Shown: positions 18,060 through 41,825 of the stretch, piece by piece
Layout of the letters: every line of letters begins with the position of its first letter
Numbering within the stretch: the first letter of the stretch is position 1
Assembly (NCBI GenBank): GCA_021811185.1
Contig: JAJZPL010000002.1
Location: 1-64,000, forward strand
Reading direction: 5' to 3'
DNA: 64,000 nt
From: a bacterium
GTDB taxonomy: Bacteria > Elusimicrobiota > Elusimicrobia > Elusimicrobiales > UBA9959
The notes under the pieces: generated by a model
What the model saw: the letters and a program-made list of their open reading frames with translations, nothing else
What the model was told of the DNA's origin: nothing
Database searches by the model: none
Made by a program: the position numbers and the translations under genes

Positions 18060-18793
18060 AGAAAACTATGCTGCTGGCGCTGGTAATGTTCATGACCGCG
18101 GGCGCGGCCCATGCGGGTGATTGCCCGGCGGTATTAAGCGGCGCTTTTAGCGGCTGTAAAGTATCGGGCGGAATAATGCGCCTGGGGGCCACCCGGGTAT
18201 ATTTGAATGATAAGGCCGGGGAGCGGGCGGCTGCGGTAGCCGGCGCCGCCGGCGGGGCAGGCGGGCTGGCCGTGGTGGCCTGGCCCGGCGGTGGCGAACT
18301 TTGGTCGGTCGGCAAAGGCGCGCCTGAGCGGCTGAACGGGTGGAACGACCTTGTGCTGGACGCCCTGGCGACGAGCAGCCGGCGCGGTAATTGGTTCGCA
18401 TATTTCGGCGGGCAGGTAATGAGCGGCGGGGATTATCCCTACAGCGGCTTCAACGCGAGGCTCGGCACCATGCTGTTAAAGAACCGTTACGACGCCTCGG
18501 TAGGCTATTCAACCTCCAAGGCCAGCGAGGACGGCGCCTCGGCCACGCGCTCGCTGGACCTGACCGGGCGGGCGCTGTTCAATTTTACGCGGCATTCCGG
18601 GCTTAACGCCGGCGCCAGGCTGGGGTACGCCAGATCCGGCGACGCGGACGGCATGTGGACGCCGTCGGTGCTGGGTGGGCTGAATATTTATCTGCCGCAG
18701 GGCAGCCTGGACCTGACCTTTACCTTCGGCGAGGCGGGCAGCCGCAGTGTGGAGCTTGGATACACGGTTTACTTCAACAGGGGCGGGCGATGA
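18056..18793 (+). CDS. Secreted beta-barrel protein, second gene of the Rhs operon
   Basis: A 245-residue protein with signal peptide MKKTMLLALVMFMTAGAAHA. A short first domain (about 22-105) precedes a barrel-like domain starting WFAYFGGQVMSGGDYPYSG and ending VELGYTVYFNRGGR. Its order of features (aromatic-GG start, YSGFNARLG, RYDASVGYS, terminal YxVYF) parallels the C-terminal domain of the gene before. It overlaps both neighbours by ATGA, so the barrel pair and the Rhs gene are made together. No homologous family recognised by name. Confidence 0.7.
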   Translation: MKKTMLLALVMFMTAGAAHAGDCPAVLSGAFSGCKVSGGIMRLGATRVYLNDKAGERAAAVAGAAGGAGGLAVVAWPGGGELWSVGKGAPERLNGWNDLVLDALATSSRRGNWFAYFGGQVMSGGDYPYSGFNARLGTMLLKNRYDASVGYSTSKASEDGASATRSLDLTGRALFNFTRHSGLNAGARLGYARSGDADGMWTPSVLGGLNIYLPQGSLDLTFTFGEAGSRSVELGYTVYFNRGGR

Positions 18794-21700
18794 AACGGCT
18801 GCTTCCCCTGGTCCTTATCTTTGCCGTTCCTGTCGGGCGGGCGCGGGCGAGCTGGACGTATTCCGGCACGTATTCCTGGCATGTTACCGCTACCTGCTGC
18901 AGCGGCGGTACCTGTTCCACCGGCGGGGTGTCCGGCGGGGATAATTTACTGCAGGGCGGCCTTTCGGCCGCCGATTGCGCGTACCTTAAGACTTCCTTAG
19001 GCGGAGCGCTGACCACTATACGGGCGGTATACCAGAGCCAGCTGGCCTTATGCCAGGCCAGCGCCTGCACCTGCAGCGGCGATTTTCAGATCGGCAATTC
19101 CAGGTGCAGCGGGTTCGACGATTTCGGCGCCGGTTCTTTCAACGGCCAGGGCGCGTTCAGCCAGACGGGCGAGGGGGTGGCGCAGTTCTCGCCGCATTAC
19201 ACTTCCGATTTCGAGGAATGGTCCACCGACGCCATGGCGCGGTGGCGCGCGTTCCGCGCGCGCAACGCGCTGGTGCAGAGCGAGGGCGTGAATATCTGGC
19301 CCAACGGCAGGTTCGGCGGCTTGGTGGAAGGCATCTACAACAAAATTGCCGCCAGGCAAAAAGCCCGGCCGGCGCCGCTGTACCCTTCGCTCGACGGCAG
19401 TTCCGCGCCGGAGAGCTCGGATGAATATGCCGGGCACTACGTGGACTATAAAATGCTGAAAGCGGACGAGCCTTCGTACGCGCAGCTGGCCGGCGAATCC
19501 CTTTTGAACGGCGAGCTGGAGAAACAGCCAGGGTGCGGCTGCCAGCCAAGCGCTTCCGTAGCGCCTGGTTACAGCATCCAGTACAATTCCCTGCGCGGCG
19601 GCCAGTACGAAGCCGCGGAGCAGAAAGTGGAGCGTTTCCCCGACGGGCGCTCCGTGTTCACGGATGACGGCAATACCCGCTGGATCTTTCGCCCTTACGG
19701 CAGCGCGGACCGGGAAAAAGGCGACAACTATTACAAACCGCCGCCGGGCTGCGCGTACAGGCTTGTTTACGGCGACATTACCGGGCACGCGCGCGGCTAC
19801 CGGGTTGAAAGCCCCGACGGCGGCGTTATGGAATTCTCCACGGCCCCCGGGCGGGACCTCTGGCGCCCGAGCCGCTATAACGCGGCGGACGGGAGCTGGC
19901 TCACCTACGATTACGGGACTAACGGGTTGGCGCGGATAACGGATATGCACGGGCGTTATTTCGCCTGCGAGCGCGACGCGCGCGGTTTGCCGCTGACGGT
20001 TACGGACAATGACGGCAAAAAGACGACTTATTCCTACGACGCCGCCGGGCGCGTGACCGCGGCCTTGCTGCCCGACGGCTTTAAAAAGCAGTTCACCTAT
20101 GATCCCGCGGGCCTGATGACCTCCGCCAGGAACGGCGCGCTGGCGGCCGAGCATTACACCTACGACCCTTCGGGCCGCCTGCTAACGTCCGAATCCGAGG
20201 GGGGCGTGAACCGCCTGGAGCATTACTACTACGACGCTTCCTCCAAAACCGCTATTGCCGACGCTTTCGGCGCGAAGACCGTATTCACTTACAAGAACGA
20301 AGGCGGGCACAAGCTGACTACGGCGGTAACCGACGCGCTGGGCGGTAAAACCGCGCTTACCTACGACGCGAATTATAATATAGCCTCGGCCACGGACCAG
20401 CTTGGCCGCGCCGCCAGGTATGCGCGCAACAACAACGGCGACCCCGAAGCCATTACCGACGCGCTGGGCAATACCGCTACCATACAGTACCAGGTGAAGC
20501 TTAATTACAAAGACGTTCTCGGCGAACATACCGACTACTATTCAAGACCCGTAAAGATAACCGACGCCCTTGGCCGCAAGACCAAACTGGATTATGATAG
20601 CTACGGCAACCTGGCCAGGACCGAGGACGCGCTGGGCAACAAAACCGGCATGGCTTACGACAAAGCCGGCCACATGCTGGAGCTGCGTGACGCCATGGGG
20701 GCCACCTACAAGTACGAATACACCATGGGTTTAACCCGAAGCGTAGACCCGCTTGGCCGCGTAACAAAATACAAGCGTGACGCGGACCTGCACGTTACCC
20801 AACTTGTGGATCCGCTCGGGCGCAGCACCACTTTTACCTACGACCTCAGCGGCAACGTGACCGAGGTGCGTAATCCGGCCAATTTCGTCACTAAATTCGC
20901 ATATGGCAACGGCGCGTGCCCTTCCTGCGGCGGCAGCCAGCTTTCGGCCCTTACCGACCCTAAGGGTAATACTTGGACCTTTGGTTATGATCAGTATGGC
21001 CGGCTGACCGATACTGCCAACCCGCTTGGTCAGCGCAAGGCTTACGCTTACGACAAAATGTCGCGTGTGACGGAAGTTAAAGACCCGGCGGGCAATGTCA
21101 CGGCTTACACTTATGACGCGCTGAACCGGCTGACCAGGAAAGATATACAGACGCCTTCCGGCGTTCATGCCGTAACAACCTACACTTACGACGCCGTGGG
21201 CAATATGCTGTCGGCCTCCAACGGGGAAAGTTCTGTGGCTTTTGTCTACGACGCGCTGAACCGCGCCGTGGAAACCCGGCAAAGCTTCGCCGGCAAGACC
21301 TACACCATCAGCTACGCTTACGATGCAGTTGGCAACCGCACCATGATGGCCACGCCGTGGGGGAAATACAGTTACACTTACGACGTGCTGAACCGCGTGA
21401 ACGCCATCACCAATCCGCAGGGCATACAAATTAACTTTAAATACGACGCCGCCGGCCGCCGCACGGGTAAGACCGTATTCGCCGCGGCCCGCAACACCGC
21501 GCCTCTCGCCGAGACCGCTTATTCCTACGACGCCGCCGGGCAGCTTTTGAGCATCACCAATAAAGCCGGCGGCAAGGTAGTGGCTTTCGATAATTACACC
21601 TACGACGCCCTGGGCAACCGCGTCAGGATAGAAGACCAGGACGGCGTAAAAGACTACACCTACGACAAGTCCAGCCGGCTGATAGTGGTTAAGCCGGTGC

Positions 21701-22923
21701 CTTTCAATATGGCCAATGCCGAGGCCTTTGTCTACGACCGTAACGGCAACCGCCGCTACGATCGCGGCGCCAAAGACTACAAATACGACGCCGCCAACCG
21801 CCTGCTGGAGAACACAGTCTATACTTACACCCACGACCAGCTAGGCAACCTGACCAGCCGCACCGAAATCGCCAGCAGCGCCACCATCATCTACGCCTAC
21901 AATCCCGAGCAGCAACTGTTCGAAGTTGTAACGCCGAAAGATAAGCTGGAATACAAATACGACCCACTGGGCCGTCGTACCGGTCGTACAGTAAACGGCG
22001 CTACGGTCCACTATGTCTACGACGGACAGGACATAATCACGGAACTAGACGAAGCCGGAACCCCTATCAACACCTACACCAACGGCCCCGGCATAGACGA
22101 GCCTCTGGTAATGTCCAAGCCCGAAGGCAAGGCTTACTACTATCATGCCGACGCCCTGGGAAGCATAACTGCAATAACGGACGACGCTAGAAAGTTAGTG
22201 GAAACCTACACTTATAAATCCTATGGCCAAGCGACGGTAAAGGATGCTGGTGGCCAAATAAGTGCTGACTCTCAGGTTGGGAATCTGCGCATGTTCGCCG
22301 CCCGAGAATTTGAGCCAGAGCTAGGCCTCTACAATAATCGCCATCGCTATCTGGACCCGATGCGCGGTGCATTTACGCAAGAAGATCCGATCGGGTTTGA
22401 AGGTAAGGATTTAAATCTTTTTGAGTATGTGTTTTCTTCTCCGCAGAGATCCGGAGACTCGCTGGGTTTAATTACTGATGAGCAATTAGGGAATAAGGAG
22501 AACCATCTTCCGCAAAATGATAGCCCACTTTTGACCAAACAGGATATCGTTAATTGGCTTAGATCGTATGGGAAAGTGCAAATCAATTTTAATGCGGGTA
22601 CTGGCGTAGTCGGAGGATCAGGCCAGCTCCAAATTACAGAGACAGGTCTTTATGGGCGTGTCGGCGGAGGATGGGGCATAGGGTGGGGAATGTCCGGTGG
22701 TCCATCTGTTTCGATAGGAAAGAATTCGGGTTGGGGTTTTTGGGTGTCGGGATCAGGGGGAAATGGTCGTGTCGGATCTTCAATATCCGGGGGGTATTCT
22801 CAAGGGGGACTCAATGGAAGCTATAGCTATGGGTGGGGAGTGGGTAATGGGGAATCAGCTGTTTTCGGCTATAAAGGCTTAATACTTGCCTTTCCACAGT
22901 CTTCCAATGTCTGCACTAAGTAA
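18790..22923 (+). CDS. Sec-exported Rhs/YD-repeat protein with glycine-rich tip
   Basis: A 1377-residue Rhs protein. The start at 18790 overlaps the previous stop (ATGA) and opens a signal peptide (MKRLLPLVLIFAVPVGRARA). Residues 22-120 are Cys-rich; YD repeats (for example TYDALNRLT, YDAVGNR) run from about 330 to 1150. The core-closing signature is LDPMRGAFTQEDPIGFEG at about 1188-1205, ending with DSLG instead of the usual DPLG. After it base composition drops sharply and a variable tip of about 150 residues follows, rich in Gly, Ser and Trp (GGGWGIGWGMSGG). The tip matches no toxin family I recognise. No VgrG, PAAR or Tc components lie nearby. Confidence 0.9.
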   Translation: MKRLLPLVLIFAVPVGRARASWTYSGTYSWHVTATCCSGGTCSTGGVSGGDNLLQGGLSAADCAYLKTSLGGALTTIRAVYQSQLALCQASACTCSGDFQIGNSRCSGFDDFGAGSFNGQGAFSQTGEGVAQFSPHYTSDFEEWSTDAMARWRAFRARNALVQSEGVNIWPNGRFGGLVEGIYNKIAARQKARPAPLYPSLDGSSAPESSDEYAGHYVDYKMLKADEPSYAQLAGESLLNGELEKQPGCGCQPSASVAPGYSIQYNSLRGGQYEAAEQKVERFPDGRSVFTDDGNTRWIFRPYGSADREKGDNYYKPPPGCAYRLVYGDITGHARGYRVESPDGGVMEFSTAPGRDLWRPSRYNAADGSWLTYDYGTNGLARITDMHGRYFACERDARGLPLTVTDNDGKKTTYSYDAAGRVTAALLPDGFKKQFTYDPAGLMTSARNGALAAEHYTYDPSGRLLTSESEGGVNRLEHYYYDASSKTAIADAFGAKTVFTYKNEGGHKLTTAVTDALGGKTALTYDANYNIASATDQLGRAARYARNNNGDPEAITDALGNTATIQYQVKLNYKDVLGEHTDYYSRPVKITDALGRKTKLDYDSYGNLARTEDALGNKTGMAYDKAGHMLELRDAMGATYKYEYTMGLTRSVDPLGRVTKYKRDADLHVTQLVDPLGRSTTFTYDLSGNVTEVRNPANFVTKFAYGNGACPSCGGSQLSALTDPKGNTWTFGYDQYGRLTDTANPLGQRKAYAYDKMSRVTEVKDPAGNVTAYTYDALNRLTRKDIQTPSGVHAVTTYTYDAVGNMLSASNGESSVAFVYDALNRAVETRQSFAGKTYTISYAYDAVGNRTMMATPWGKYSYTYDVLNRVNAITNPQGIQINFKYDAAGRRTGKTVFAAARNTAPLAETAYSYDAAGQLLSITNKAGGKVVAFDNYTYDALGNRVRIEDQDGVKDYTYDKSSRLIVVKPVPFNMANAEAFVYDRNGNRRYDRGAKDYKYDAANRLLENTVYTYTHDQLGNLTSRTEIASSATIIYAYNPEQQLFEVVTPKDKLEYKYDPLGRRTGRTVNGATVHYVYDGQDIITELDEAGTPINTYTNGPGIDEPLVMSKPEGKAYYYHADALGSITAITDDARKLVETYTYKSYGQATVKDAGGQISADSQVGNLRMFAAREFEPELGLYNNRHRYLDPMRGAFTQEDPIGFEGKDLNLFEYVFSSPQRSGDSLGLITDEQLGNKENHLPQNDSPLLTKQDIVNWLRSYGKVQINFNAGTGVVGGSGQLQITETGLYGRVGGGWGIGWGMSGGPSVSIGKNSGWGFWVSGSGGNGRVGSSISGGYSQGGLNGSYSYGWGVGNGESAVFGYKGLILAFPQSSNVCTK
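21014..22215 (+). repeat. Rhs core repeat, copy 1
   Basis: Encodes the stretch from TANPLGQRKAYAYDKMSRVT to ETYTYKSYG in the full-length Rhs gene. It is clearly homologous over about 1.2 kb to 23307-24525, with long identical amino acid runs such as NGESSV, TPWGKYSYTYD and GNLTSRTEIASSATI. Confidence 0.88.
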
Positions 22924-22924
22924 T

Positions 22925-23272
22925 ATGAATATTATGACAACTGACAGGTTCCTTTGGTCATGTTTTGCCTGCTTGGGGTTATTGATGTGTGTGGTGATAC
23001 GATATCGGTATCTTTTTGATTCGTATCTAAAAAATAATCATGCGGATATATGGTGTTCGCTTTCCAGCGGGTCACGTTTCCCGATGACGGATCCTAAGAC
23101 CGCCAAGGCCATTATGCATTTCTTGATCAAAAAAGAATATTTACGAGTTGATGACGCACGCCTAACGGCTATCTCAAGAAAATTAATGCTCTCGCAATTA
23201 GTATATATAACGTTTATGAGCGTGTTTTTTATTCTTGGGATTATGAAAATACGTTCTGGCAGAATTGGATAG
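22925..23272 (+). CDS. Small membrane protein, candidate immunity for the first Rhs tip
   Basis: A 115-residue protein starting at ATG 22925, directly after the Rhs stop. Two hydrophobic segments (about residues 8-24, LWSCFACLGLLMCVVI, and 86-106, LVYITFMSVFFILGI) flank a charged middle. AT-rich like the Rhs tip before it, unlike the GC-rich backbone. Position immediately after a variable Rhs tip is the normal place for a cognate immunity gene; two membrane spans would suit a membrane-acting toxin. No named family recognised, so immunity is inference. Confidence 0.6.
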   Translation: MNIMTTDRFLWSCFACLGLLMCVVIRYRYLFDSYLKNNHADIWCSLSSGSRFPMTDPKTAKAIMHFLIKKEYLRVDDARLTAISRKLMLSQLVYITFMSVFFILGIMKIRSGRIG

Positions 23273-25146
23273 TGGGAGTCTATGTGTCGCCACGAAGAAT
23301 AGTCAATACAGCCAACCCGCTGGGTCAGGCCAAGGCCTACAATTACGACAAGATGTCCCGTGTCACCGAGATTAAGGATCCCGCCGGCAATATAACCTCT
23401 TATACCTATGATGCCCTGAACAGACTGACGAAGAAAGACATTCAGACCACGGCCGGGATACATTCAATAACGGACTATACTTATGATGCCGTTGGGAACC
23501 TTCTGAATATCGCCAATGGGGAGAGCTCGGTCAGCTATACCTACGACCAGTTGAACCGCCCTATTACGACCAGCCAGGCCTTCGCCGGCAAAACTTATCC
23601 CATAACCTATTCCTACGACGCGGTAGGGAACCGCGTCAGTATGACCACGCCGTGGGGGAAATACAGTTACACCTACGACGCGCTGAACCGCTTAACGTCC
23701 ATCCTGAACCCGCAGGGCATAACCGCGGCCTTCACTTACGACGCCGTCGGCCGCCGCACCAGTAAAAAAATCTTCAAAGCCACCCCGGAGCTGCTGGCCG
23801 AGGCTGATTACACTTACGACGCCGCAGGCGAACTGTTAAGCATAACCAACAAAGCAGACAACAAGGTCGTGGCCTTTGCCAACTACGAGTACGACGCCGC
23901 CGGCAACCGGATTAAGAAAGAGGACCAGAACGGCGTAGAGAAATACCGTTACGACGCCGCCAACCGCCTTATAACCGCCGAGCCCGTCCCGTTCGACATG
24001 GCCAAGGCGGAGGGTTTTGTCTATGACAGGAACGGCAACAGAAGATTCGACCGTGGCGCGAAAGACTATAAATACGACGCCGCCAACCGTGTGCTATCTA
24101 ACAGCGTCTACACCTACACGCACGACGCCAACGGCAACCTGACCAGCCGCACCGAAATAGCCAGCAGCGCCACGATAACCTACGCCTATAACCCGGAGCA
24201 ACAGCTTTCCGAAGTGACCACGCCCAAGGATAACTTGGCGTACAAATACGACCCCTTAGGCCGCCGCACTGAAAAGACCGTGAACGGCATTAGCGATAGA
24301 TATGTCTACGATAACGAAGATATAATCGCCATACTGGATAGCAATAGTAACCTGGCCGAAACATTCACCCACGGCCCGGGAATTGATGAGCCGCTGCTTA
24401 TGACAAAAGCGGATGGGAACAATTATTATTACCATGCCGACGGGCTGGGCTCCATAGTGACTTTGACCGACGAAAAAGGCCAGGTACTCGAAACATATGC
24501 GTACAAATCTTATGGCTACGCCACTATAAAGGACCAGAAAGGTGCAATTTTTGATAAATCTAACATAAGCAACCCGTACTTTTTTACGGCTAGGGAACTC
24601 GAAGACGCGTCGGGGTTGTATTATTTGCGCCATAGATATTACGACTGGAATAGGGGGGCTTTTACACAAGAAGATCCGATTGGGTTTGTAGGGATAGATT
24701 TAAATCTATACTCATATGTGCTGGATAATCCCATATTGCTGCTTGATCCGTTTGGCTTACATGCGTTAATATTTGATGGAAAGATTTTGCAGTATTTTAA
24801 TGATGAGATGCGTTTGGTTGGAACATATAACGCGACTTCTGGGGCAATAAATGTTACAGATAGAACGCTAAAAGGAAAGGGCCCCATTCCATTTGGCCTC
24901 TATCTGCTGTATCCGAGTGAGATTTCTAAGACTAATTTTATCCGGAAGTTTCTGGGGGATTGGGGGGAATATCGTGTTCCTTTGCATCCGACATCAGGAA
25001 CAGATACATTTGGCCGAGGTGGTTTCTTTTTGCATGGAGGCAAACGCCCAGGATCAGCTGGATGTGTGGATGTTGGGGCGCAGGACATCGAACTATTTCC
25101 GAAGCTAATTACCCATGAATCCCCAATACTCCTTATTTCTAAATAA
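23272..25146 (+). CDS. Truncated Rhs module with L,D-transpeptidase-like (Tlde1/DUF2778-type) tip
   Basis: A 624-codon frame beginning at GTG 23272, which overlaps the preceding stop. It lacks a signal peptide, the Cys-rich head and the first half of the YD shell, joining Rhs homology abruptly at TANPLGQAKAYNYDKMS. The core ends RGAFTQEDPIGFVG then LLLDPFGLH. The AT-rich tip (about residues 496-624) includes GPIPFGLYLL, LHPTSGTDTFGRGGFFLHGG and the catalytic HGGKRPGSAGC (H588, C598). That histidine-glycine-cysteine pattern is the L,D-transpeptidase active site, closest to DUF2778/Tlde1, toxins that damage peptidoglycan. It may be a silent donor cassette or a coupled product. Confidence 0.8.
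   Translation: MGVYVSPRRIVNTANPLGQAKAYNYDKMSRVTEIKDPAGNITSYTYDALNRLTKKDIQTTAGIHSITDYTYDAVGNLLNIANGESSVSYTYDQLNRPITTSQAFAGKTYPITYSYDAVGNRVSMTTPWGKYSYTYDALNRLTSILNPQGITAAFTYDAVGRRTSKKIFKATPELLAEADYTYDAAGELLSITNKADNKVVAFANYEYDAAGNRIKKEDQNGVEKYRYDAANRLITAEPVPFDMAKAEGFVYDRNGNRRFDRGAKDYKYDAANRVLSNSVYTYTHDANGNLTSRTEIASSATITYAYNPEQQLSEVTTPKDNLAYKYDPLGRRTEKTVNGISDRYVYDNEDIIAILDSNSNLAETFTHGPGIDEPLLMTKADGNNYYYHADGLGSIVTLTDEKGQVLETYAYKSYGYATIKDQKGAIFDKSNISNPYFFTARELEDASGLYYLRHRYYDWNRGAFTQEDPIGFVGIDLNLYSYVLDNPILLLDPFGLHALIFDGKILQYFNDEMRLVGTYNATSGAINVTDRTLKGKGPIPFGLYLLYPSEISKTNFIRKFLGDWGEYRVPLHPTSGTDTFGRGGFFLHGGKRPGSAGCVDVGAQDIELFPKLITHESPILLISK
23307..24525 (+). repeat. Rhs core repeat, copy 2
   Basis: Second copy of the Rhs core segment, homologous to 21014-22215 and in the same orientation. 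It offers a recombination substrate that would exchange one tip plus downstream gene for the other. Confidence 0.88.
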
Positions 25147-25147
25147 T

Positions 25148-25564
25148 ATGAAAACATTGCAATATGTTTTGGGTGGACTAGTAACTGAAATTGTTGGCAT
25201 CGTTGCATTTGTACGATTTGCTAACACCTTCAAAAGCCTGACGCCTAAATATGCCATTATCACGCTTGTATTATGTGTTTTTGTAGGCTTAATGTTTAAA
25301 ACATTACTTTTCCTTAATCGCAAAAAAATCTTAACGGCATTTGTATCCTTTTCTACTTTAAGTGTAATCGTATTGCAAGTGCTCGGCAGGTTCTTTTATT
25401 CTGGAATTCTGAAAGATATTGGGTTATTCTCTTGGGACAATTTCAACATTGTCATGTTCACGACAGCTGGAATTATACTTTCCCAGGTTATTTTCTATCT
25501 ATTTGCATACTTGTTTGCAAAACTTATGAAGTGTAGTGTAAACCGCTCTAGTCGTGAGTCTTAA
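25148..25564 (+). CDS. Four-span membrane protein, candidate immunity for the transpeptidase-like tip
   Basis: A 138-residue AT-rich gene starting 1 base after the Rhs module stop. About four hydrophobic segments: VLGGLVTEIVGIVAFV, AIITLVLCVFVGLM, VSFSTLSVIVLQVLG and IVMFTTAGIILSQVIFYLF. Position makes it the natural immunity candidate. Known Tlde1 immunity proteins are periplasmic or membrane anchored, but I see no specific family match. Inference only. Confidence 0.6.
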   Translation: MKTLQYVLGGLVTEIVGIVAFVRFANTFKSLTPKYAIITLVLCVFVGLMFKTLLFLNRKKILTAFVSFSTLSVIVLQVLGRFFYSGILKDIGLFSWDNFNIVMFTTAGIILSQVIFYLFAYLFAKLMKCSVNRSSRES

Positions 25565-34047: not shown

Positions 34048-35262
34048 ATGTCACGATTATACAATAAATTTTCCGCGGGGTTCGCGCTCCCTGGCGGGGC
34101 GCCGGACGGGGCGCCTATTGTTTTGCCGCGGGCCCTTATGCCAGAATATCGGTGGATGAAAAAACACCGCGTCAGGCCCCGGCTTAAGGAAAGAGCGCGC
34201 GCTGCGGCGGCGCAAACCGCGCACTCCGACGGCGGGCTGTACCGCGTGTTCTTCGAGCAGGCCCGCGATTCGCTGCTGGTGCTGGAACTGCCGCGCGGCG
34301 GCGCGCCGCTGATCAAGGACGCCAATCCCGCGGCGCTGCTGCTCCACGGTTATTCCCGGGAAGAGCTTATCGGCAAGCCGGTTTCGGTGCTGGGCGCGTC
34401 CCTGAGCCGCGGCCGGCTGGTCCTCGAGAACAGCGGCGACAGCGCGGTTTTCGAAGTGCGCCAGAAACGCAGGGACGGGACGCCGCTTATCACGGAAGTC
34501 ACGGCCCGCAACGTTAATTTCGGTTCCATGCTTTACGGCATCCTGATCGAGCGCGACGTCACGCAGCGCCGGCGCCTCGAAGAGGAAGGGCGCCAGGTGG
34601 CGGGGCGCATCATGCTGGCGCGCGAGGCGGAAAAAAAGAGGCTGGCGGCCTCCCTGCACGACGCGGTCGGCGCCATGCAGGTAGGGCTGTCCTCGGCGCT
34701 GCTGGTAGTGGCCGAAGAGGTCCGCCTGGGCGAAAGCAGGCGGGCGCTAGCCAGCCTGGAGCGGGCGGGGAGACTTCTGAAAACAATGACCGCTGGCGTT
34801 AAAGGGGCCTGCGTGGAGAGCTGGCCGCCGGCGCTGGCGGTTTCGGGCCTGGACGCGGTGCTCCGCGACCTGCTGGACGGCTTCTCCGGCCGTTCGAAGA
34901 TCCGCGTGCAGGCCGATATCCGTCTTCCCGAAGACGAACGCCAGCGCGAGAACCCTCTTTCCATCGTGCTTTACCGCCTGGCCCAGGAAGCCCTGATGAA
35001 CGCGGAGAAGCATTCCGGGGCGGAAAAACTCGAGTTTTCCGTAGGCAGCGAGAACGGCTGGATGAAACTCACGGTGAGCGACGACGGGCGCGGCTTCAAC
35101 ATGGCTAAGGCGAAGAACAAAAAGTCCAGCCTGGGGCTTAAGATCATGGCCGAGGCCGCGGCGGCCGCCGGCGGTTATTTCTCCGTATATTCAAAGCCCG
35201 GGGGCGGCACGCTGGTAAAGGCCGAATTGCCGCTGGGCCGCGGCGCGGGGGCCGCGCCATGA
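34048..35262 (+). CDS. PAS-domain NarX/DegS-type (HisKA_3) histidine kinase
   Basis: A kinase of up to 404 residues, cytoplasmic as far as visible (no clear membrane span). A PAS domain occupies about 65-180 (VFFEQARDSLLVLE to LIERDVTQRRR). The dimerisation domain has EKKRLAASLHDAVGAMQVGL, the HisKA_3 type, then LYRLAQEALMNAEKHSGA and VSDDGRGFN. The N-terminus is uncertain: no SD fits 34048, and ATGs at 34138 and 34156 are alternatives, which would fit a plus-strand -10 near 34060. It overlaps its NarL-type regulator by ATGA. Confidence 0.88.
   Translation: MSRLYNKFSAGFALPGGAPDGAPIVLPRALMPEYRWMKKHRVRPRLKERARAAAAQTAHSDGGLYRVFFEQARDSLLVLELPRGGAPLIKDANPAALLLHGYSREELIGKPVSVLGASLSRGRLVLENSGDSAVFEVRQKRRDGTPLITEVTARNVNFGSMLYGILIERDVTQRRRLEEEGRQVAGRIMLAREAEKKRLAASLHDAVGAMQVGLSSALLVVAEEVRLGESRRALASLERAGRLLKTMTAGVKGACVESWPPALAVSGLDAVLRDLLDGFSGRSKIRVQADIRLPEDERQRENPLSIVLYRLAQEALMNAEKHSGAEKLEFSVGSENGWMKLTVSDDGRGFNMAKAKNKKSSLGLKIMAEAAAAAGGYFSVYSKPGGGTLVKAELPLGRGAGAAP
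34056..34061 (-). promoter_or_regulatory. -10 element for the receiver-TonB receptor operon
   Basis: Minus-strand TATAAT, 55 bases before the chosen start at 34000, in the AT-rich gap between divergent sensory operons. Confidence 0.45.
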
Positions 35263-35924
35263 TCATGCCCGCCCCGATCCGCGTTCTGTTGGCCGACGAC
35301 CACACGGTGGTGATCGAGGGCCTTAAAGCCGTCCTTAAGAAGACGGCTCCCGATATCGTGGTCTGCGGCGAGGCCAGGGACGGCCGCCGGGCGCTGGCCC
35401 TGGCGCGCAGGTCCCAGGTGGACGTGTACGTGTTCGACATCTCCATGCCGGGGCTGAACGGGCTGGAGGCCATGGCCAGGCTGCTGCTGGAAGACGCCGA
35501 CGCCAGGGTGATCATGCTGAGCATGCACGACGACCGGCCCACCGTGGAAAAAGCCCTCCGCGCCGGCGCGAAAGGCTACCTGGTGAAGGAGAGCGCGGCC
35601 GAGGAGATCGTGCGCGCGCTGCGCGTGGTCCACCGCGGGCAATACTATTTCAGCCCTTCCGTTTCCGAACTGCTGGCGGGGTCGGGGCGCCGCTCCACGC
35701 TTGCCGCGGTAAAGAAAATACGGAGTTCCGGCCTGACCGCCAAGGAGACGGACGTGGTGCGGCTCCTTGCCGAAGGGCTGGGCAACAAGCAGGTAGCCGC
35801 CAAACTGGCCATTTCCGAAAGCACCATCCACGTCCACAGGCGCAATATCGCCCGCAAGTTGGACATCCATAAACAGACCGACCTGGTCCGTTACGCCTTC
35901 CGCGAAGGCCTCGCCAAGCCGTAA
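35259..35924 (+). CDS. NarL/FixJ-family response regulator
   Basis: A 221-residue transcription factor: receiver (VLLADDHTVVIEGL; phosphoacceptor in YVFDISMPGLNG; K in YLVKESA) and a LuxR-type HTH (LTAKETDVVRLLAEGLGN, then VAAKLAISESTIHVHRR). Coupled by ATGA to the HisKA_3 kinase, its evident partner. Targets are unknown; the divergent TonB-receptor operon 1.2 kb away is a candidate. Confidence 0.94.
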   Translation: MIMPAPIRVLLADDHTVVIEGLKAVLKKTAPDIVVCGEARDGRRALALARRSQVDVYVFDISMPGLNGLEAMARLLLEDADARVIMLSMHDDRPTVEKALRAGAKGYLVKESAAEEIVRALRVVHRGQYYFSPSVSELLAGSGRRSTLAAVKKIRSSGLTAKETDVVRLLAEGLGNKQVAAKLAISESTIHVHRRNIARKLDIHKQTDLVRYAFREGLAKP

Positions 35925-36138: not shown

Positions 36139-37410
36139 ATGACACTGAACGCACTGGAACAGAGAGGAAAGCAACTGTTGAGGCAGCAGGCCCTGTGGTC
36201 GGGCCTGATGTCCCTTTTCGCCTCGCTGATCTACTTCGCGGCGGATTTCCCTTTCCCCAGGGTCATAGCCTCCATAGCCCTGGTGGCCGCGGCCGCGTAT
36301 TTCGCCTATTATCTTTTCTTCGACCTGCTCTGCCGCACCTGCTACGGCCAGGCGGGGGCCGCGCTGAGCGTGCTGGGCGTAACCACGCTTACGCTGGTGG
36401 TGAACTTCACCGGCGGCATAGTTTCCCCGTTCATCTTCCTCTATTTCTGCATCCTTATCTCCGAGGCGCTGTACGGCCTGGAGAACCGGGCGACCCTGCC
36501 TGTAGCCCTTGCCGGGTACCTGCTGGTGGTGGCGGGACAGTTCACGGGGCTTATCCCTTATTTCAACCCCTGGGCGCACGATATTTACAGGAGCCCGCTC
36601 GCCGTGTTCCTTATCGCGGCGGTTACGGCGGTCTACCTGACGCTGACCAACCGCATCACCAGGCTGATCGTGACCAACCTGCGCGCCAAGCTGGAACTCG
36701 GCGCGGCGGAAAAGGAGGCCCTGCTGCGCAAGTTCTCCGAGCTGAACGCCACGGCGCAGATAGGCGTGCTGGCGCACCGCATCGCGCACGACCTGCGCGG
36801 ACCGATCTCCTCGGTCTCCGGCTATATCCAGATCGAACTGCTTAAGAAGAAGACCCCCGAGGAACTCGAGACGCTCGGGGACCTGAACTCCGTGGTCAGG
36901 AACATGGAAGAATCCCTGCGGGGGATCACCCGCTTCGGCAGGACGGCGGCGGGGAACCAGGAAAAGATCCTGCTCGCGGATTTTATGGAGTCGCTGCTGG
37001 CCATAGTAGCCTACTCTCCCCAGGCGAGCGGCGTGCAGTTTAAAAAACTTTTCCCCGCAAAACTCCAGGCCGGGGCCGAAGGCTCCCGCGCCGACCTGCA
37101 GCAGGCTTATTTCAACATCATCAAGAACGCGGTGGAGGCGGTACGGGATAACCCCGGCGACAAGATCATCGAAATAGATATAAAGACGGACGGCGGCGAG
37201 GCGCGGATCTCCGTGGCCGACAACGGCCCGGGCATTCCGCCCGAGATCTTCGGCAGCCTGTTCAATAAATCCGTTACCACCAAAAAGGAAGGCACCGGGG
37301 TGGGCCTGATCATTACGAAAGCCCTGCTGGAACAGAACGCGGGCGGGATAGAGCTGAGGAACCGCGCGGAGGGCGGGCTGAGCGTGCTGACGCGGCTGCC
37401 GCTGGCCTGA
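36139..37410 (+). CDS. Membrane histidine kinase A of the lycopene-cyclase-like cluster
   Basis: A 423-residue kinase with about six membrane spans in residues 18-180, including VVNFTGGIVSPFIFLYFCI, and almost no periplasmic loop. H-box VLAHRIAHDLRGPISSVSG (His near residue 221), N-box YFNIIKNAVEAV, then VADNGPGIPPE and GTGVGLIITKALLEQ. It is a close paralogue of the kinase at 39215, sharing the GGIVSP motif and the whole catalytic part. First gene of the cluster, with no adjacent receiver. Confidence 0.93.
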   Translation: MTLNALEQRGKQLLRQQALWSGLMSLFASLIYFAADFPFPRVIASIALVAAAAYFAYYLFFDLLCRTCYGQAGAALSVLGVTTLTLVVNFTGGIVSPFIFLYFCILISEALYGLENRATLPVALAGYLLVVAGQFTGLIPYFNPWAHDIYRSPLAVFLIAAVTAVYLTLTNRITRLIVTNLRAKLELGAAEKEALLRKFSELNATAQIGVLAHRIAHDLRGPISSVSGYIQIELLKKKTPEELETLGDLNSVVRNMEESLRGITRFGRTAAGNQEKILLADFMESLLAIVAYSPQASGVQFKKLFPAKLQAGAEGSRADLQQAYFNIIKNAVEAVRDNPGDKIIEIDIKTDGGEARISVADNGPGIPPEIFGSLFNKSVTTKKEGTGVGLIITKALLEQNAGGIELRNRAEGGLSVLTRLPLA

Positions 37411-37456
37411 GTTCGCGGGGGCGCTGCCTGGTTCACGAAGGAGATACGACTTTAAT

Positions 37457-37777
37457 ATGCCGGTTTACCTGATAACCTATACGCTCCTCTTCTGGGTCCC
37501 GGCCCTGCTTTTCATCGTTTTTTTCCTGCCGCGCCTCGACGGCGGGCTGCGCAGGTCTTTCTGGGCCGCTTCCGCCGCCATGGCCGCGGTGTCGGTGGTG
37601 ATGGAGTACCTGTTCCTGAAGTTCGACGTGTGGTTCTTTTCGGAGAAGATAGACCGGCTGCTGGGAGTGTGGATAGGGGCCGCGCCGGTGGAGGAATTCG
37701 TGTTCTGGTTCGGCGCCACGCCTTTCTGCCTGGCCCTTTATCTGACGTACAGCCGCATCCTGAGGAAAAATGCCTGA
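37457..37777 (+). CDS. Lycopene cyclase domain protein, CrtYc-like half
   Basis: A 106-residue membrane protein with three spans. YTLLFWVPALLFIVFF opens it, and APVEEFVFWFG carries the PxEE motif of the heterodimeric/CarR lycopene beta-cyclase superfamily. SD AAGGAGA. It overlaps the next gene, the matching second half, by 8 bases. Carotenoid chemistry is the family precedent; no phytoene synthase or desaturase is in the window, so another isoprenoid substrate or a sensory role is possible. Confidence 0.75.
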   Translation: MPVYLITYTLLFWVPALLFIVFFLPRLDGGLRRSFWAASAAMAAVSVVMEYLFLKFDVWFFSEKIDRLLGVWIGAAPVEEFVFWFGATPFCLALYLTYSRILRKNA

Positions 37778-38153
37778 AGCGGACGAACTGCTGAGCGAAG
37801 AAGACCGGAAGAAGAAGGACGCGACCGCCCAAAAAAAATGGCCGGCCAGCGTGATCCTGGCCGCGCCTTTCGCGCTGCTCCTGATCCCGCTGTACCGGGC
37901 CGCCAGGGAAAGGGTCAACTGGAAGGCCGCGCTGGCGATGATCGCCACCTTCGAGGCCGTCATGATCTGCGCCGAGCTGTTCTCGGTTTCGCGCGGCCAC
38001 TGGATCTGGAACCCCAACCGCGTACTGGGGCCGATGTTCTTCGGCGTGCCGATCGAGGAGCCGCTGCTGTATTACTGGTTCCCGCCGCTTTTTGTGGTGA
38101 TCCTCATGCACGCGTTCGAGGGCTATTTCGCCAAGGGGAACAAAGCTGAATGA
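37770..38153 (+). CDS. Lycopene cyclase domain protein, CrtYd-like half
   Basis: A 127-residue protein: a charged cytoplasmic N-terminus (about 1-25, EADELLSEEDRKKKD) then three spans, with GVPIEEPLLYYWFPPL as the second PxEE motif of the family. The N-terminal charged extension is unusual. Overlaps both neighbours (8 and 4 bases), so the halves are made in fixed ratio. Confidence 0.72.
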   Translation: MPEADELLSEEDRKKKDATAQKKWPASVILAAPFALLLIPLYRAARERVNWKAALAMIATFEAVMICAELFSVSRGHWIWNPNRVLGPMFFGVPIEEPLLYYWFPPLFVVILMHAFEGYFAKGNKAE

Positions 38154-38695
38154 AACTGATCATCTTCGAGGCCGCGATCTACGCCCTGGTCCCGCTCGTC
38201 TGGTTCCTGTTCAAGCGCTTCGCCGGGCGCAACGTGGCCGGCGAAATGATAGCCGGCGCCATCATCGGCTTCTTTAACGAATTCGCCACCGAGCCTCTCT
38301 GGGACTACCACTTCCGGCTCACTTACTACAAGGATATCCCCGTCGCCATCATTCTCAGCTGGGGCGTGCTGTTCGCGGTGGTGGTCTACGTTTCGGAAAA
38401 GATGTACTGTTTCGCGCGCAAGCGTAAAACCATAAAGCCGGGGGACGTGAGCATTTTTATCTTCGACCTGCTGGCGGCCGCGCTTATAGCCTTCCCGGTG
38501 GAAACGCTCGGCGTAAAATCCGGCATTTGGACTTACCGCTACGACAGGCTCAACTGGGATTGGGGGACGGTCCCGCTCTTCAACATGCCGTGGGAGGCCC
38601 TTTTCGGCTACTGCCTGCTGATGCTGATAGGCCCGAGTTTCGTGCGGGCCTGGGAAAAGACTTTCGACGAGGTGCTGCCAGGGGAGGGGGAATGA
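38150..38695 (+). CDS. Unknown five-span membrane protein, paralogue 1
   Basis: A 181-residue membrane protein. Conserved blocks shared with the next gene: GEMIAGAIIGFFNEFATEPL, WDYHF-LTYYKD, GIWTYRYD, NWDWGTVPLFNMPWE and FGYCLLMLIGPSFVRAW. The spacing of G-W-TYR and P-x-E resembles the lycopene cyclase halves at low similarity. Coupled by ATGA on both sides. No function assigned. Confidence 0.7.
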   Translation: MKLIIFEAAIYALVPLVWFLFKRFAGRNVAGEMIAGAIIGFFNEFATEPLWDYHFRLTYYKDIPVAIILSWGVLFAVVVYVSEKMYCFARKRKTIKPGDVSIFIFDLLAAALIAFPVETLGVKSGIWTYRYDRLNWDWGTVPLFNMPWEALFGYCLLMLIGPSFVRAWEKTFDEVLPGEGE

Positions 38696-39213
38696 CCCTC
38701 AAGGTGCTGGAGCTTATAGGGCTGCTGCAGGCCCCGCTGATGTGGTGGGTGTTCCGCAAGTACTTCAAACGGGACATGACCGGCGAGATGATAGCCAGCG
38801 CCATAGTGGGCGTGGTGTGGGAGATAGCCACCGAGCCGCTGTGGGATTATCATTTCACCCTGACTTATTACAAAGACGCCCCGGTGGCCGAACTTACGGG
38901 CTGGATGGTGATGTTCCCGCTGGTGATCCTGCTCTCCGAGAAACTGTACCGCGTCGTGCTGAAGAAGGACAAGCTGCTGCCGCACGACAAGCGGATCTTC
39001 CTGTTCGACGTGATAAGCGCCCAGGTGATCTGCCTGCCGCTGGAAGCCATAGGCGCGCGGCTCGGCGTGTGGACCTACCGGCTGGATGTCCTGGGCTGGC
39101 ACTGGGGCACGATCCCTTTCTTCAACCTGCCGCTGGAGGTCCCTTTCGGCTACTCGCTTTTAATGCTGATAGCTCCCACGTTCATAAGGTACTGGCAGAA
39201 GGATTTCGAATAA
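38692..39213 (+). CDS. Unknown five-span membrane protein, paralogue 2
   Basis: A 173-residue paralogue of the preceding gene, starting at ATG 38692 within ATGA. Same blocks in the same order: GEMIASAIVGVVWEIATEPL, WDYHFTLTYYKD, GVWTYRLD, WHWGTIPFFNLPLE and FGYSLLMLIAPTFIRYW. The kinase gene begins 1 base after its stop. Arisen by tandem duplication; retention of both suggests a heterodimer. Confidence 0.7.
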   Translation: MTLKVLELIGLLQAPLMWWVFRKYFKRDMTGEMIASAIVGVVWEIATEPLWDYHFTLTYYKDAPVAELTGWMVMFPLVILLSEKLYRVVLKKDKLLPHDKRIFLFDVISAQVICLPLEAIGARLGVWTYRLDVLGWHWGTIPFFNLPLEVPFGYSLLMLIAPTFIRYWQKDFE

Positions 39214-39214
39214 T

Positions 39215-40492
39215 ATGCTGGAAAGCGGCTATCCCCTGGAAACGCGGTACGCGCGGATATACAGCAAAAAGCAGGCGCTGTACTCCGCCGTCCTGTGCCT
39301 GGCGGTTTCCTGCGGGGTCTTTTTGCTGCCGGACTTCCCTTTCGACCGCCGCATGGCCTACTTTACGCTGCTGGCCTCGTTCGTCTACGCCGGGGTGTAC
39401 CTGCTCCACGACAGGCTGGCCGGGCATTACCACCAGGTGGTGACCGGGGTGAGCCTGCTGGGGCTGGTGGCGATCTCGTTCATAGTCCACCTGACGGGCG
39501 GGATAGTCTCGCCGATGATCTGCTTTTATTTCGGCATCCTGATCTCCGAGGCCGCCTACGGGGTGGCCCATTCGGTGAGCATCGTGGCCGCGGTAGTGTG
39601 CTTTCTCGGCGTGATAGCGGCGGAGGTGACGGGGCTGCTTCCGGTTTCCCCGATGGCCGCCGCGGTCTACTCCAGCCCGGTCACCGCCGCCATGATCGTT
39701 CTGGCGGTAGCCTCGCTGATGGCTATAACCGGGCATATCGGCAGGATCATCATCCGCCAGCTAAGGCAGGACCTGGAGGACGAGAACCGGGAAAAACACC
39801 TTATTATGCACAAGTTCAGCGAGCTCGAGGCGCATTCGCAGATAGGCCTGCTGGCGCACCGGATAGTGCACGACCTGCGCGGGCCGATAGCCTCGATCTC
39901 CGGCTATATCCAGATCGAGGCCCTTAAGGACAAGCCGCAGGAAGAAAAAGAAATGCTCAACGACCTTAACGACACGGTGATGGGGATGTCCGAGTCGCTT
40001 TCCAATATAACCCGGTTCGGCAAGATGTCCTCCGGTAGCGCCGAGAAGATCCCGCTGGCGGATTTCATCAGGAACCTGGTAGCCATCGCCTCTTTTTCTC
40101 CCCAGGCGAAGGGGGTCAGGTTCGTGAAACTTTACCCCGACACGCTGCCTGTCAGCGTAAACGCCTCCAGGCAGGACCTGCAGCAGGTCTATTTCAACCT
40201 TATCAAGAACGCGGTGGAAGCGCTGCGGGACAATTCCGACGGCAAGGTGGTGGAGATAGGGATAGCCAAAGAGGGAAAGGACGTGGTGGTGACCGTGTCC
40301 GACAACGGCCCGGGCATGCCGGAGGAAATACTGAAGACTATCTTCAGGAAATCCATTACCACCAAGAAGGACGGCACGGGCGTGGGGCTGTTCATCGCCA
40401 AGGACCTGCTGGCCAGGAACAACGGCGACATAGAACTGCACAACCGCGCGGAAGGCGGGCTGAAGGTAATTACCCGCCTTTCGGCCGCCTGA
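39215..40492 (+). CDS. Membrane histidine kinase B of the lycopene-cyclase-like cluster
   Basis: A 425-residue paralogue of the kinase at 36139. N-terminal spans in residues about 20-185 with IVHLTGGIVSPMICFYFGI. H-box LLAHRIVHDLRGPIASISG, N-box YFNLIKNAVEAL, VSDNGPGMPEE and GTGVGLFIAKDLLAR. It starts 1 base after the preceding stop, so all six genes of the cluster are probably one transcript. Confidence 0.93.
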   Translation: MLESGYPLETRYARIYSKKQALYSAVLCLAVSCGVFLLPDFPFDRRMAYFTLLASFVYAGVYLLHDRLAGHYHQVVTGVSLLGLVAISFIVHLTGGIVSPMICFYFGILISEAAYGVAHSVSIVAAVVCFLGVIAAEVTGLLPVSPMAAAVYSSPVTAAMIVLAVASLMAITGHIGRIIIRQLRQDLEDENREKHLIMHKFSELEAHSQIGLLAHRIVHDLRGPIASISGYIQIEALKDKPQEEKEMLNDLNDTVMGMSESLSNITRFGKMSSGSAEKIPLADFIRNLVAIASFSPQAKGVRFVKLYPDTLPVSVNASRQDLQQVYFNLIKNAVEALRDNSDGKVVEIGIAKEGKDVVVTVSDNGPGMPEEILKTIFRKSITTKKDGTGVGLFIAKDLLARNNGDIELHNRAEGGLKVITRLSAA

Positions 40493-40553: not shown

Positions 40554-41825
40554 GTGAAAATAGCATCATGTCGGCGCGGCCTGTGCATAGCAGCGGCGGG
40601 ATTGCTCCTGGGCGGTGTCTTAGGCGTTCGGGCTTTCGCTTCGGGTTACGAGTTCGACGGCGTGGGCGCCCGGTCGGTGGCCCGCGGCGGCGCGGTTATA
40701 GCCGACGTGAACGACTGGACGGCCATATACTGGAACCCGGCCGGCCTGGTGAACGCGGCGTCCAAAGAAGCGGGCCTGGAACTGCGGGCAGGCAAGATGT
40801 ACACCAAGGACGGGAATTCCTTCAACGTGCTGGGGATGAACCCTTTCGACAAGACCCGCGTGACTTCCGGTTTCGTGCTCGGTTCGCTGGGCGTGGTGAT
40901 CCCGCTCGACGCCGATAACGCCATAGCCGCGGGCGCTTACTCGCCGCTGCTGCAGGGAGCGGATTTCAAGGATACCGCCCCGGCCGACCTGTTCGTGAAC
41001 GCCCTCGATTATAAGAGCAACGTGCTTACCGGGGTGTTCAACGTGTCTTACTCCAGGCGCCTGGACGAGAAGTTCACCGCCGGGCTGGGCGTTAACGCCA
41101 TCTACGGCTCCCTTACTTCGGATTCTACGATCAACTGGGGGCCGGGCCTGGTTCTTATCCCCGGCATGGCCGCCATGGCTAACACGACCCAGAAGAATAA
41201 ATCCGACGCCAACGGTTACGGCTTCGAGGGCGTGGGCGGCCTGGACTACAAGATCAACGACGCCTGGAAGGCAGGTTTTGTAGTGCGCACCGGCGCCCGG
41301 ATAGTTCTGAAGGGCGACGAAAAGGTTTATGTGAACGGAGCTTTCGCGCAAAAGAGCGACTTCGAATACCCGGTGCACCACCCCGCCACTTCGGGCTTGG
41401 GTGTGGCCTGGCAGGCCAGCCAGGACCTGAAAGTTACCTGCGATATCGCCCAGGCCTGGTGGAAAGGCTTCTCCAGCGCCCGGACCTACGATACCCCGGG
41501 CGGCCTGCTGAACAGCAACGGGAATACCTACCACTGGCTCAATTCCACCAAGTTCAGGCTCGGCGCTCTCAAAAAGCTGAGCGATAAATACGAAGTGATG
41601 GGCGGCTACGCCTTCGACACCTGGGCCATCGACCGGCACAGCATCGACTTCTCCACAGCCATCGACGTGCCGATGCACCGCTTCTCCGCCGCCGTCACCC
41701 GCAAGTGGGCGGCCGTGGACGCCACGCTGGGGGCGCTGGCCGGCTCCGGCAGGCGCACCGCCGCCGGGGTGGACTATTCCCTCAAAGGCTGGTATGTGAT
41801 GGGCGAGGTGAAGTACAGGTTTTAA
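40554..41825 (+). CDS. FadL/OmpP1/TodX-type outer-membrane channel
   Basis: A 423-residue hydrophobic-compound channel. GTG start behind GTGGAGGA; signal peptide ends VRAFA. The family opener GVGARSVARGGAVIADVNDW and YWNPAGLVNA follow, and the barrel ends GEVKYRF. The family moves long-chain fatty acids or aromatic hydrocarbons across the outer membrane. It lies 61 bases after kinase B and may be co-transcribed, which would link the cyclase-like cluster to uptake of a lipid. Confidence 0.88.
   Translation: MKIASCRRGLCIAAAGLLLGGVLGVRAFASGYEFDGVGARSVARGGAVIADVNDWTAIYWNPAGLVNAASKEAGLELRAGKMYTKDGNSFNVLGMNPFDKTRVTSGFVLGSLGVVIPLDADNAIAAGAYSPLLQGADFKDTAPADLFVNALDYKSNVLTGVFNVSYSRRLDEKFTAGLGVNAIYGSLTSDSTINWGPGLVLIPGMAAMANTTQKNKSDANGYGFEGVGGLDYKINDAWKAGFVVRTGARIVLKGDEKVYVNGAFAQKSDFEYPVHHPATSGLGVAWQASQDLKVTCDIAQAWWKGFSSARTYDTPGGLLNSNGNTYHWLNSTKFRLGALKKLSDKYEVMGGYAFDTWAIDRHSIDFSTAIDVPMHRFSAAVTRKWAAVDATLGALAGSGRRTAAGVDYSLKGWYVMGEVKYRF

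Follow-up and report, generated by a model that had tools for sequence, protein, structure and literature searches.

Conserved clusters of histidine kinases and lycopene-cyclase-like membrane proteins in Elusimicrobiota may form a membrane sensory module

The window analyzed here is a stretch of 64,000 nucleotides (nt) from a bacterium of the phylum Elusimicrobiota (assembly GCA_021811185.1, contig JAJZPL010000002.1); it is contig C3 of the 3.09 Mb genome G000, which is 93.6% complete. According to the open reading frames, positions 36139-40492 hold six packed genes in the order HK1, YcL, YdL, P1, P2 and HK2, and the unit usually continues into a FadL-family gene. The seven genes are as follows:

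36139-37410, + strand: HK1, histidine kinase of 423 amino acid residues (aa) with a six-span, loop-free sensor, HisKA and HATPase_c
37457-37777, + strand: YcL, CrtYc-like half with a single CarR domain, 106 aa (TIGR03462, PF18916 and family alignment)
37770-38153, + strand: YdL, CrtYd-like half with a single CarR domain, 127 aa (PF18916, TIGR03462 and family alignment)
38150-38695, + strand: P1, five-helix membrane protein with a predicted Insig-like fold, 181 aa (model)
38692-39213, + strand: P2, paralogue of P1, 173 aa (50% identity)
39215-40492, + strand: HK2, second six-span kinase, 425 aa; its counterpart in relatives lies between CarR/P and FadL
40554-41825, + strand: FadL/OmpP1/TodX-family outer-membrane protein, usual final gene of the unit (PF03349)

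YcL and YdL overlap by 8 nt, YdL and P1 as well as P1 and P2 by 4 nt, and a gap of 1 nt separates P2 from HK2; these overlaps and the 1-nt gap tie the genes from YcL to HK2 together, as one transcript would show. The tight coupling of the six genes, which was claimed in the initial annotation of this sequence, was therefore borne out, and the FadL gene had been overlooked there. The promoter scan was uninformative (3 found, 1.7 expected).

The conservation of the gene order was analyzed in 27 loci (the window, L047-L069 and L114-L116) by tblastn, given that the gene caller had chosen wrong frames for some of the GC-rich genes. The order Yc-Yd-P-HK, with or without FadL at the end, was found to recur in five Elusimicrobiota families. 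Yc and Yd were adjacent in 25 of the 27 loci; P occurred in 23 loci, in 10 of them as two copies; a kinase came immediately behind the CarR/P genes in 25, and FadL directly followed the kinase in 18. In L114 and L116, Yc-Yd-HK is followed 4 kb further on by a second HK and FadL. HK2 represents the usual partner, since an HK1-like kinase upstream was observed in just four loci (the window, L048, L050 and L052). The FadL-family protein of the window is an above-threshold member of PF03349 (62.1 bits; cut-off 29.7) and as such resembles the FadL/TodX channels, from which it differs in being linked to a kinase and to cyclase-fold proteins.

Subsequent to the locus counts, the profile survey of 340 Elusimicrobiota genomes gave CarR matches in 26, of which 24 carried a CarR pair; the single weak matches of G130 and G142 were left out of the counts because their loci (L117 and L118) had no Yc, Yd or P match. 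The kinase sensor profile matched 35 of the 340 genomes, which ruled out a kinase that is simply common in the phylum. The sensor was present in all 24 CarR-pair genomes versus 11 of the 316 others (Fisher p 1e-28) and, within the genus of the window, in 13 of 13 CarR-pair genomes versus 9 of 19 others (p 0.0016), although these p-values overstate independence because the genomes are related. A lack of kinase conservation next to the cyclase-like genes in relatives, which the initial annotation had named as counting against its reading, was thus not observed, either in the loci or in the genomes. The 11 kinase genomes outside the CarR-pair set comprise ten with the kinase alone and G105, whose locus (L069) is a degraded unit with remnants of YcL through P, containing stops, ahead of the kinase; at L069, a decay of CarR/P with retention of the kinase is possible. 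Nine of the ten kinase-only genomes (not L129, a short contig) share the flanking genes of the genus, a MinD-like ATPase or BtuF. Since ten genomes hold the kinase alone, its action does not require CarR and P.

These flanking genes bear on the question of chance synteny, that is, of genes lying together merely through the order conserved in the genus (hydrogenase genes, MinD-like ATPase, BtuFCD). Within the genus, the flanking order is indeed kept whether or not CarR/P is present. However, Yc-Yd-P-HK is also kept in four other families, and a second copy (L051) lies elsewhere in the genome G128, in a neighborhood that showed none of those flanking genes, so chance synteny is considered very improbable.

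HK1 and HK2 are 50% identical, and hydropathy assigns six spans to each, connected by loops of 2-19 residues, in agreement with their first description as paralogous multi-span kinases without loops. The ATPase domain PF02518 was matched with 67.2 bits (HK1) and 72.2 bits (HK2); the HisKA score was sub-threshold in HK1 (20.6 bits) and above the cut-off in HK2 (27.4 bits), and the phospho-acceptor His217 of HK1 was invariant in the kinase alignment (A9). Each sensor carries a GGxxSP motif within the membrane part:

36412-36432, + strand: GGIVSPF motif of HK1, resembling the RegB motif GGXXNPF in place and form
39497-39517, + strand: GGIVSPM motif of HK2 (kinase alignment and motif list)

The residues P38-F39, GG92-93, S96-P97, G137 and Y150 were invariant in the alignments of 15 full-length kinases and 14 sensor domains, and GGxxSP(F/M/L/Y) was present in 15 of 15 kinases, with Ser at the position of the RegB Asn; this invariance rests on the kinase and sensor-domain alignments, as the later motif list was picked by the motif itself. 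GGXXNPF is described as the quinone site of RegB (PMC8191878). The kinases resemble RegB/PrrB/ActS in the six loop-free spans, in GGxx(S/N)P within the membrane and in a weak ActS/PrrB/RegB match of the sensor domain alone in 3 of 14 members. They differ in the Ser, in their operon partners, in the full-length NF033792 scores (72.6 and 77.4 bits versus a cut-off of 350) and in their cysteines: HK1 has three and HK2 four, all in the membrane part, and the cytoplasmic redox-box cysteine of RegB was not found in either sequence. Because both the cysteine and the score tests failed, the kinases are not members of RegB. Judged by its sequence, the sensor may offer a site to a hydrophobic ligand, quinone-like or otherwise.

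Of the four family scores obtained for the CarR halves, three were below the cut-off. TIGR03462 (cut-off 39.4) gave 36.3 bits for YcL and 33.3 bits for YdL, and PF18916 (Lycopene_cyc, cut-off 27) gave 21.5 bits for YcL and, above the cut-off, 32.2 bits for YdL. The designation as CrtYc-like and CrtYd-like halves was retained on the basis of these CarR-family matches. An acid motif, PxEE, was found in each half, in all 15 aligned YcL and all 15 aligned YdL sequences:

37685-37696, + strand: PVEE motif of YcL (P77, E79 and E80 invariant, 15/15)
38049-38060, + strand: PIEE motif of YdL (P94, E96 and E97 invariant, 15/15)

We take PxE(E/D/Q) in each half to be the acid motif of the CrtYc/CrtYd lycopene cyclases. 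In four loci of the families f6, f7 and f9, a fused double-CarR gene precedes the kinase:

L057:1383-2129, L062:1990-2754, L064:9294-10070 and L068:7295-8047: fused double-CarR proteins

The two double-CarR proteins tested, those of L057 and L068, scored 49.3 and 53.1 bits with TIGR03462, above the cut-off. In these four loci, the split pair and the fused gene stand side by side in one cluster. When plasmids were searched with the double-CarR protein of L068 for CarR proteins elsewhere, the single match was irrelevant. Where the function of a CarR-domain protein is known, it is that of a lycopene cyclase (PMC9304148). The pair shares with CrtYc/CrtYd the arrangement as two small overlapping genes, with one domain apiece and PxEE in each half. 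In contrast to that system, all carrier genomes hold the kinase sensor and 21 of 24 hold the P family.

The CarR matches, together with two squalene/phytoene-synthase-family (SQS_PSY) genes found in G000 away from the cluster, could indicate that YcL and YdL genuinely cyclize lycopene in the making of a host carotenoid and that the kinases are unrelated to them. However, no crtI above the cut-off and no CarR pair beyond YcL/YdL were found in G000, and the better SQS_PSY protein was closest to HpnD (256.7 bits, below the cut-off of 278.6). The absence of any other carotenoid gene, as noted in the initial annotation, therefore holds for crtI and a further CarR pair, with the two synthase-family genes as a qualification. 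Ordinary crt genes requiring this cyclase had been named there as evidence that would count against its reading, and this condition, too, came out in favor of that reading: crtI was above the cut-off in 13 of the 340 genomes, namely in 1 of the 24 with a CarR pair (G120; absent from the other 23) versus 12 of the 316 others (p 1.0), and at E 1e-30 in 3 of 24 versus 28 of 316. A squalene/phytoene synthase was found in 221 of the 340 genomes, and no match was obtained in three CarR-pair genomes, G141, G326 and G327 (completeness of 95, 100 and 91%); in these three, there is accordingly no evident route to a C30/C40 substrate. Genes missing from drafts are possible for single genomes, but they could hardly account for the pattern. 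Lycopene is an unlikely substrate, given that crtI is not associated with the pair, that the synthase is missing in three carriers and that the synthase of G000 is HpnD-like; owing to the failed crtI test, the cluster is not a lycopene cyclase operon. With the kinases conserved alongside as well, a host lycopene cyclase is strongly disfavored and retains scarcely any probability.

P1 and P2 are 50% identical, and neither was assigned to a Pfam or NCBIfam family above the cut-off. The P1 model (from 20 sequences; pLDDT 87.9, pTM 0.82) has five long helices, consistent with the original view of two paralogous five-span proteins. The WTYR and P-x-E blocks said to be shared by them were upheld in part: in the alignment of 20 family members, W127, Y129, P142, P147 and E149 of P1 were invariant, so that WxY and PxE stand, whereas T and R of WTYR vary. 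A common plan was seen in the sequences, with a span, a short loop containing W-x-Y/F and P-x-E at the following span, and this plan is consistent with the fold matches described below. The P1/P2 profile matched 22 of the 340 genomes (families f1, f6, f7, f9 and f25), and a scan of GTDB 220 (one genome per species) yielded 21 P loci, all in Elusimicrobiota and including L071 (G145) and L090 (G162). By these searches, the P family appears to be found only in this phylum. One of the 20 P proteins resembled CruF/DUF422 (Caroten_synth, PF04240) along residues 14-167 with E 8e-4 and 19.8 bits; this best score is below the cut-off of 25, and the other 19 members had no PF04240 match.

Structure comparison, which covered the structures ranked by Foldseek, gave MvINS, the mycobacterial Insig homologue, as the best match of the P1 model (Z 7.8, rmsd 3.4, 136 aligned), with Z 5.3 for the Insig chain of 7etw and Z 5.2 for the best unrelated structure. 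The double-CarR protein of L057, modeled from four sequences (pLDDT 76.8, pTM 0.77), also matched MvINS best (Z 9.9, rmsd 3.8, 161 aligned; and Z 9.7), followed by Scap/Insig entries (Z 6.9, 6.6 and 6.3; best unrelated Z 4.7), and these fold matches are suggestive, because helical proteins may reach such Z values by arrangement alone. The Foldseek ranking agreed, with Insig proteins best for both models. P1 and the double-CarR protein have no detectable profile similarity (0.5% probability), yet both match Insig best. No Insig entry was obtained in the Pfam scans of P1, P2, YcL, YdL or the 20 P members, nor any Insig chain when the PDB was searched with profiles of P and YdL; as far as sequence can tell, P is not a member of Insig. 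The predicted likeness to Insig/MvINS is thus one of structure, and P1 differs in the missing sequence match, in its five long helices and in having bacterial kinases as neighbors and putative partners.

Animal Insig is a membrane lipid sensor, which senses oxysterols and is the partner of Scap. A bacterial counterpart of Insig-Scap could be imagined, in which the Insig-fold CarR pair and P would be lipid receptors gating RegB-like kinases, FadL would provide ligand entry, and the CarR fold and Insig would be related by descent, the sterol sensor and the carotenoid cyclases sharing an ancestor; this combined proposal is considered unlikely. Among the matches listed in the literature search, in which subscription journals were thinly covered, no paper linked Insig and lycopene cyclase structurally.

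Gene order and its conservation, co-occurrence, kinase catalytic motifs, fold matches and the lack of association with carotenoid genes are observed directly, and from these we infer ligand binding, protein contacts, the direction of signaling and the identity of the regulator. In the reading that we tentatively prefer, the cluster would encode a membrane module that senses a hydrophobic molecule and reports it to the kinases. FadL would let this molecule, or a related lipid, through the outer membrane; YcL with YdL and P1/P2, all predicted to have one Insig/lycopene-cyclase-like fold, would be its binding proteins in the inner membrane and might also modify it; the loop-free six-span kinases would read the ligand, or a ligand-loaded partner, via the membrane domain around GGxxSP and would then phosphorylate a response regulator. 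Sensing within the membrane, as proposed at first, agrees with the loop-free six-span sensor and its invariant GGxxSP, and with the Insig-like fold predicted for P1 and the double-CarR protein; a chromophore as the input of the kinases found no support.

Several observations weigh against this module. The kinase persists in ten genomes that have neither CarR nor P, which is the main fact against a strict interdependence, and P is missing in three CarR-pair genomes. L066 and L115 are CarR/P loci without an adjoining kinase, and no adjoining FadL was found in L051, L065, L066, L067 and L115. The P profile compared weakly with YcL (16.7% probability) and YdL (6.2%), the Insig Z values are below about 13, the level that is safe for helical proteins with this tool, and Ser replaces the RegB Asn in kinases that lack the cytoplasmic redox cysteine. 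Moreover, the intact PxEE of YcL and YdL is also compatible with an enzyme.

The main rival is accordingly a lipid-modifying enzyme set, such as an isoprenoid/quinone cyclase or hydratase, whose expression is regulated by kinases sensing, for example, the quinone pool. In addition to the invariant PxEE, this would agree with the lycopene cyclases among CarR proteins of known function, with the sub-threshold PF04240 match over most of the length of one P protein and with kinases that persist, with intact GGxxSP, where CarR and P are absent. Against it stand the 23 CarR-pair genomes without crtI above the cut-off, the three without a synthase match, and the finding that no other biosynthetic gene was seen to recur in the unit across families by gene clustering and tblastn. 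Given the intact PxEE and the kinases that occur on their own, the enzyme set is nearly as good an explanation, and we regard it as a somewhat doubtful but serious possibility.

If the sensory module is correct, it would represent two-component signaling with new membrane partners that serve as input proteins of a new type; it would explain CarR-domain proteins in bacteria without a carotenoid pathway, add the undescribed protein family P and offer a testable structural link from the lycopene cyclases to the animal sterol sensor Insig. It would also give a first handle on lipid or quinone sensing in free-living Elusimicrobiota, represented here by metagenome-assembled genomes only. No paper describing this arrangement turned up in the literature searched, with the same thin coverage of subscription journals.

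Two further signaling genes lie upstream of the cluster, as indicated by profile matches:

34048-35262, + strand: PAS kinase
35259-35924, + strand: NarL-type response regulator

This pair is a possible signaling partner. The PAS kinase and NarL regulator, in the order HKx-RRx-HK, were also found in L121, L127, L128, L129 and L131, within the genus only. In families f6, f7 and f9, a receiver-domain protein lies directly upstream of YcL (L057, L062, L064 and L068); it is an HTH_17-receiver protein in L057 and L064 (Pfam) and in L068 (alignment), and that of L062 is cut by the contig end. A full-length HTH_17-receiver candidate was also found in G000 (C65:3983-4537; 155.8 bits, the next match 77.3), with no other link to the cluster. 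The receiver-domain search of this genome (3.1 Mb) gave 105 matches, a rich two-component repertoire.

A membrane protein of 280 residues, c7 (L058:11947-12789), lies between FadL and BtuF in members of the genus. It followed FadL in six members by clustering (L058, L047, L048, L050, L053 and L054) and in L060 by tblastn; it is not in the window and possibly belongs to the unit as well. A visual impression of c7 as CruF-like was not used, since no match came from Pfam, NCBIfam or the comparison of profiles.

Elsewhere in the window, positions 18655-25146 hold two tandem RHS/YD-repeat genes, the second of which lies in a low-GC stretch (0.46-0.49) and has a distinct C-terminal tail. The small membrane-protein gene after this tail (25115-25564) is a possible immunity gene, and the arrangement resembles a polymorphic RHS locus.

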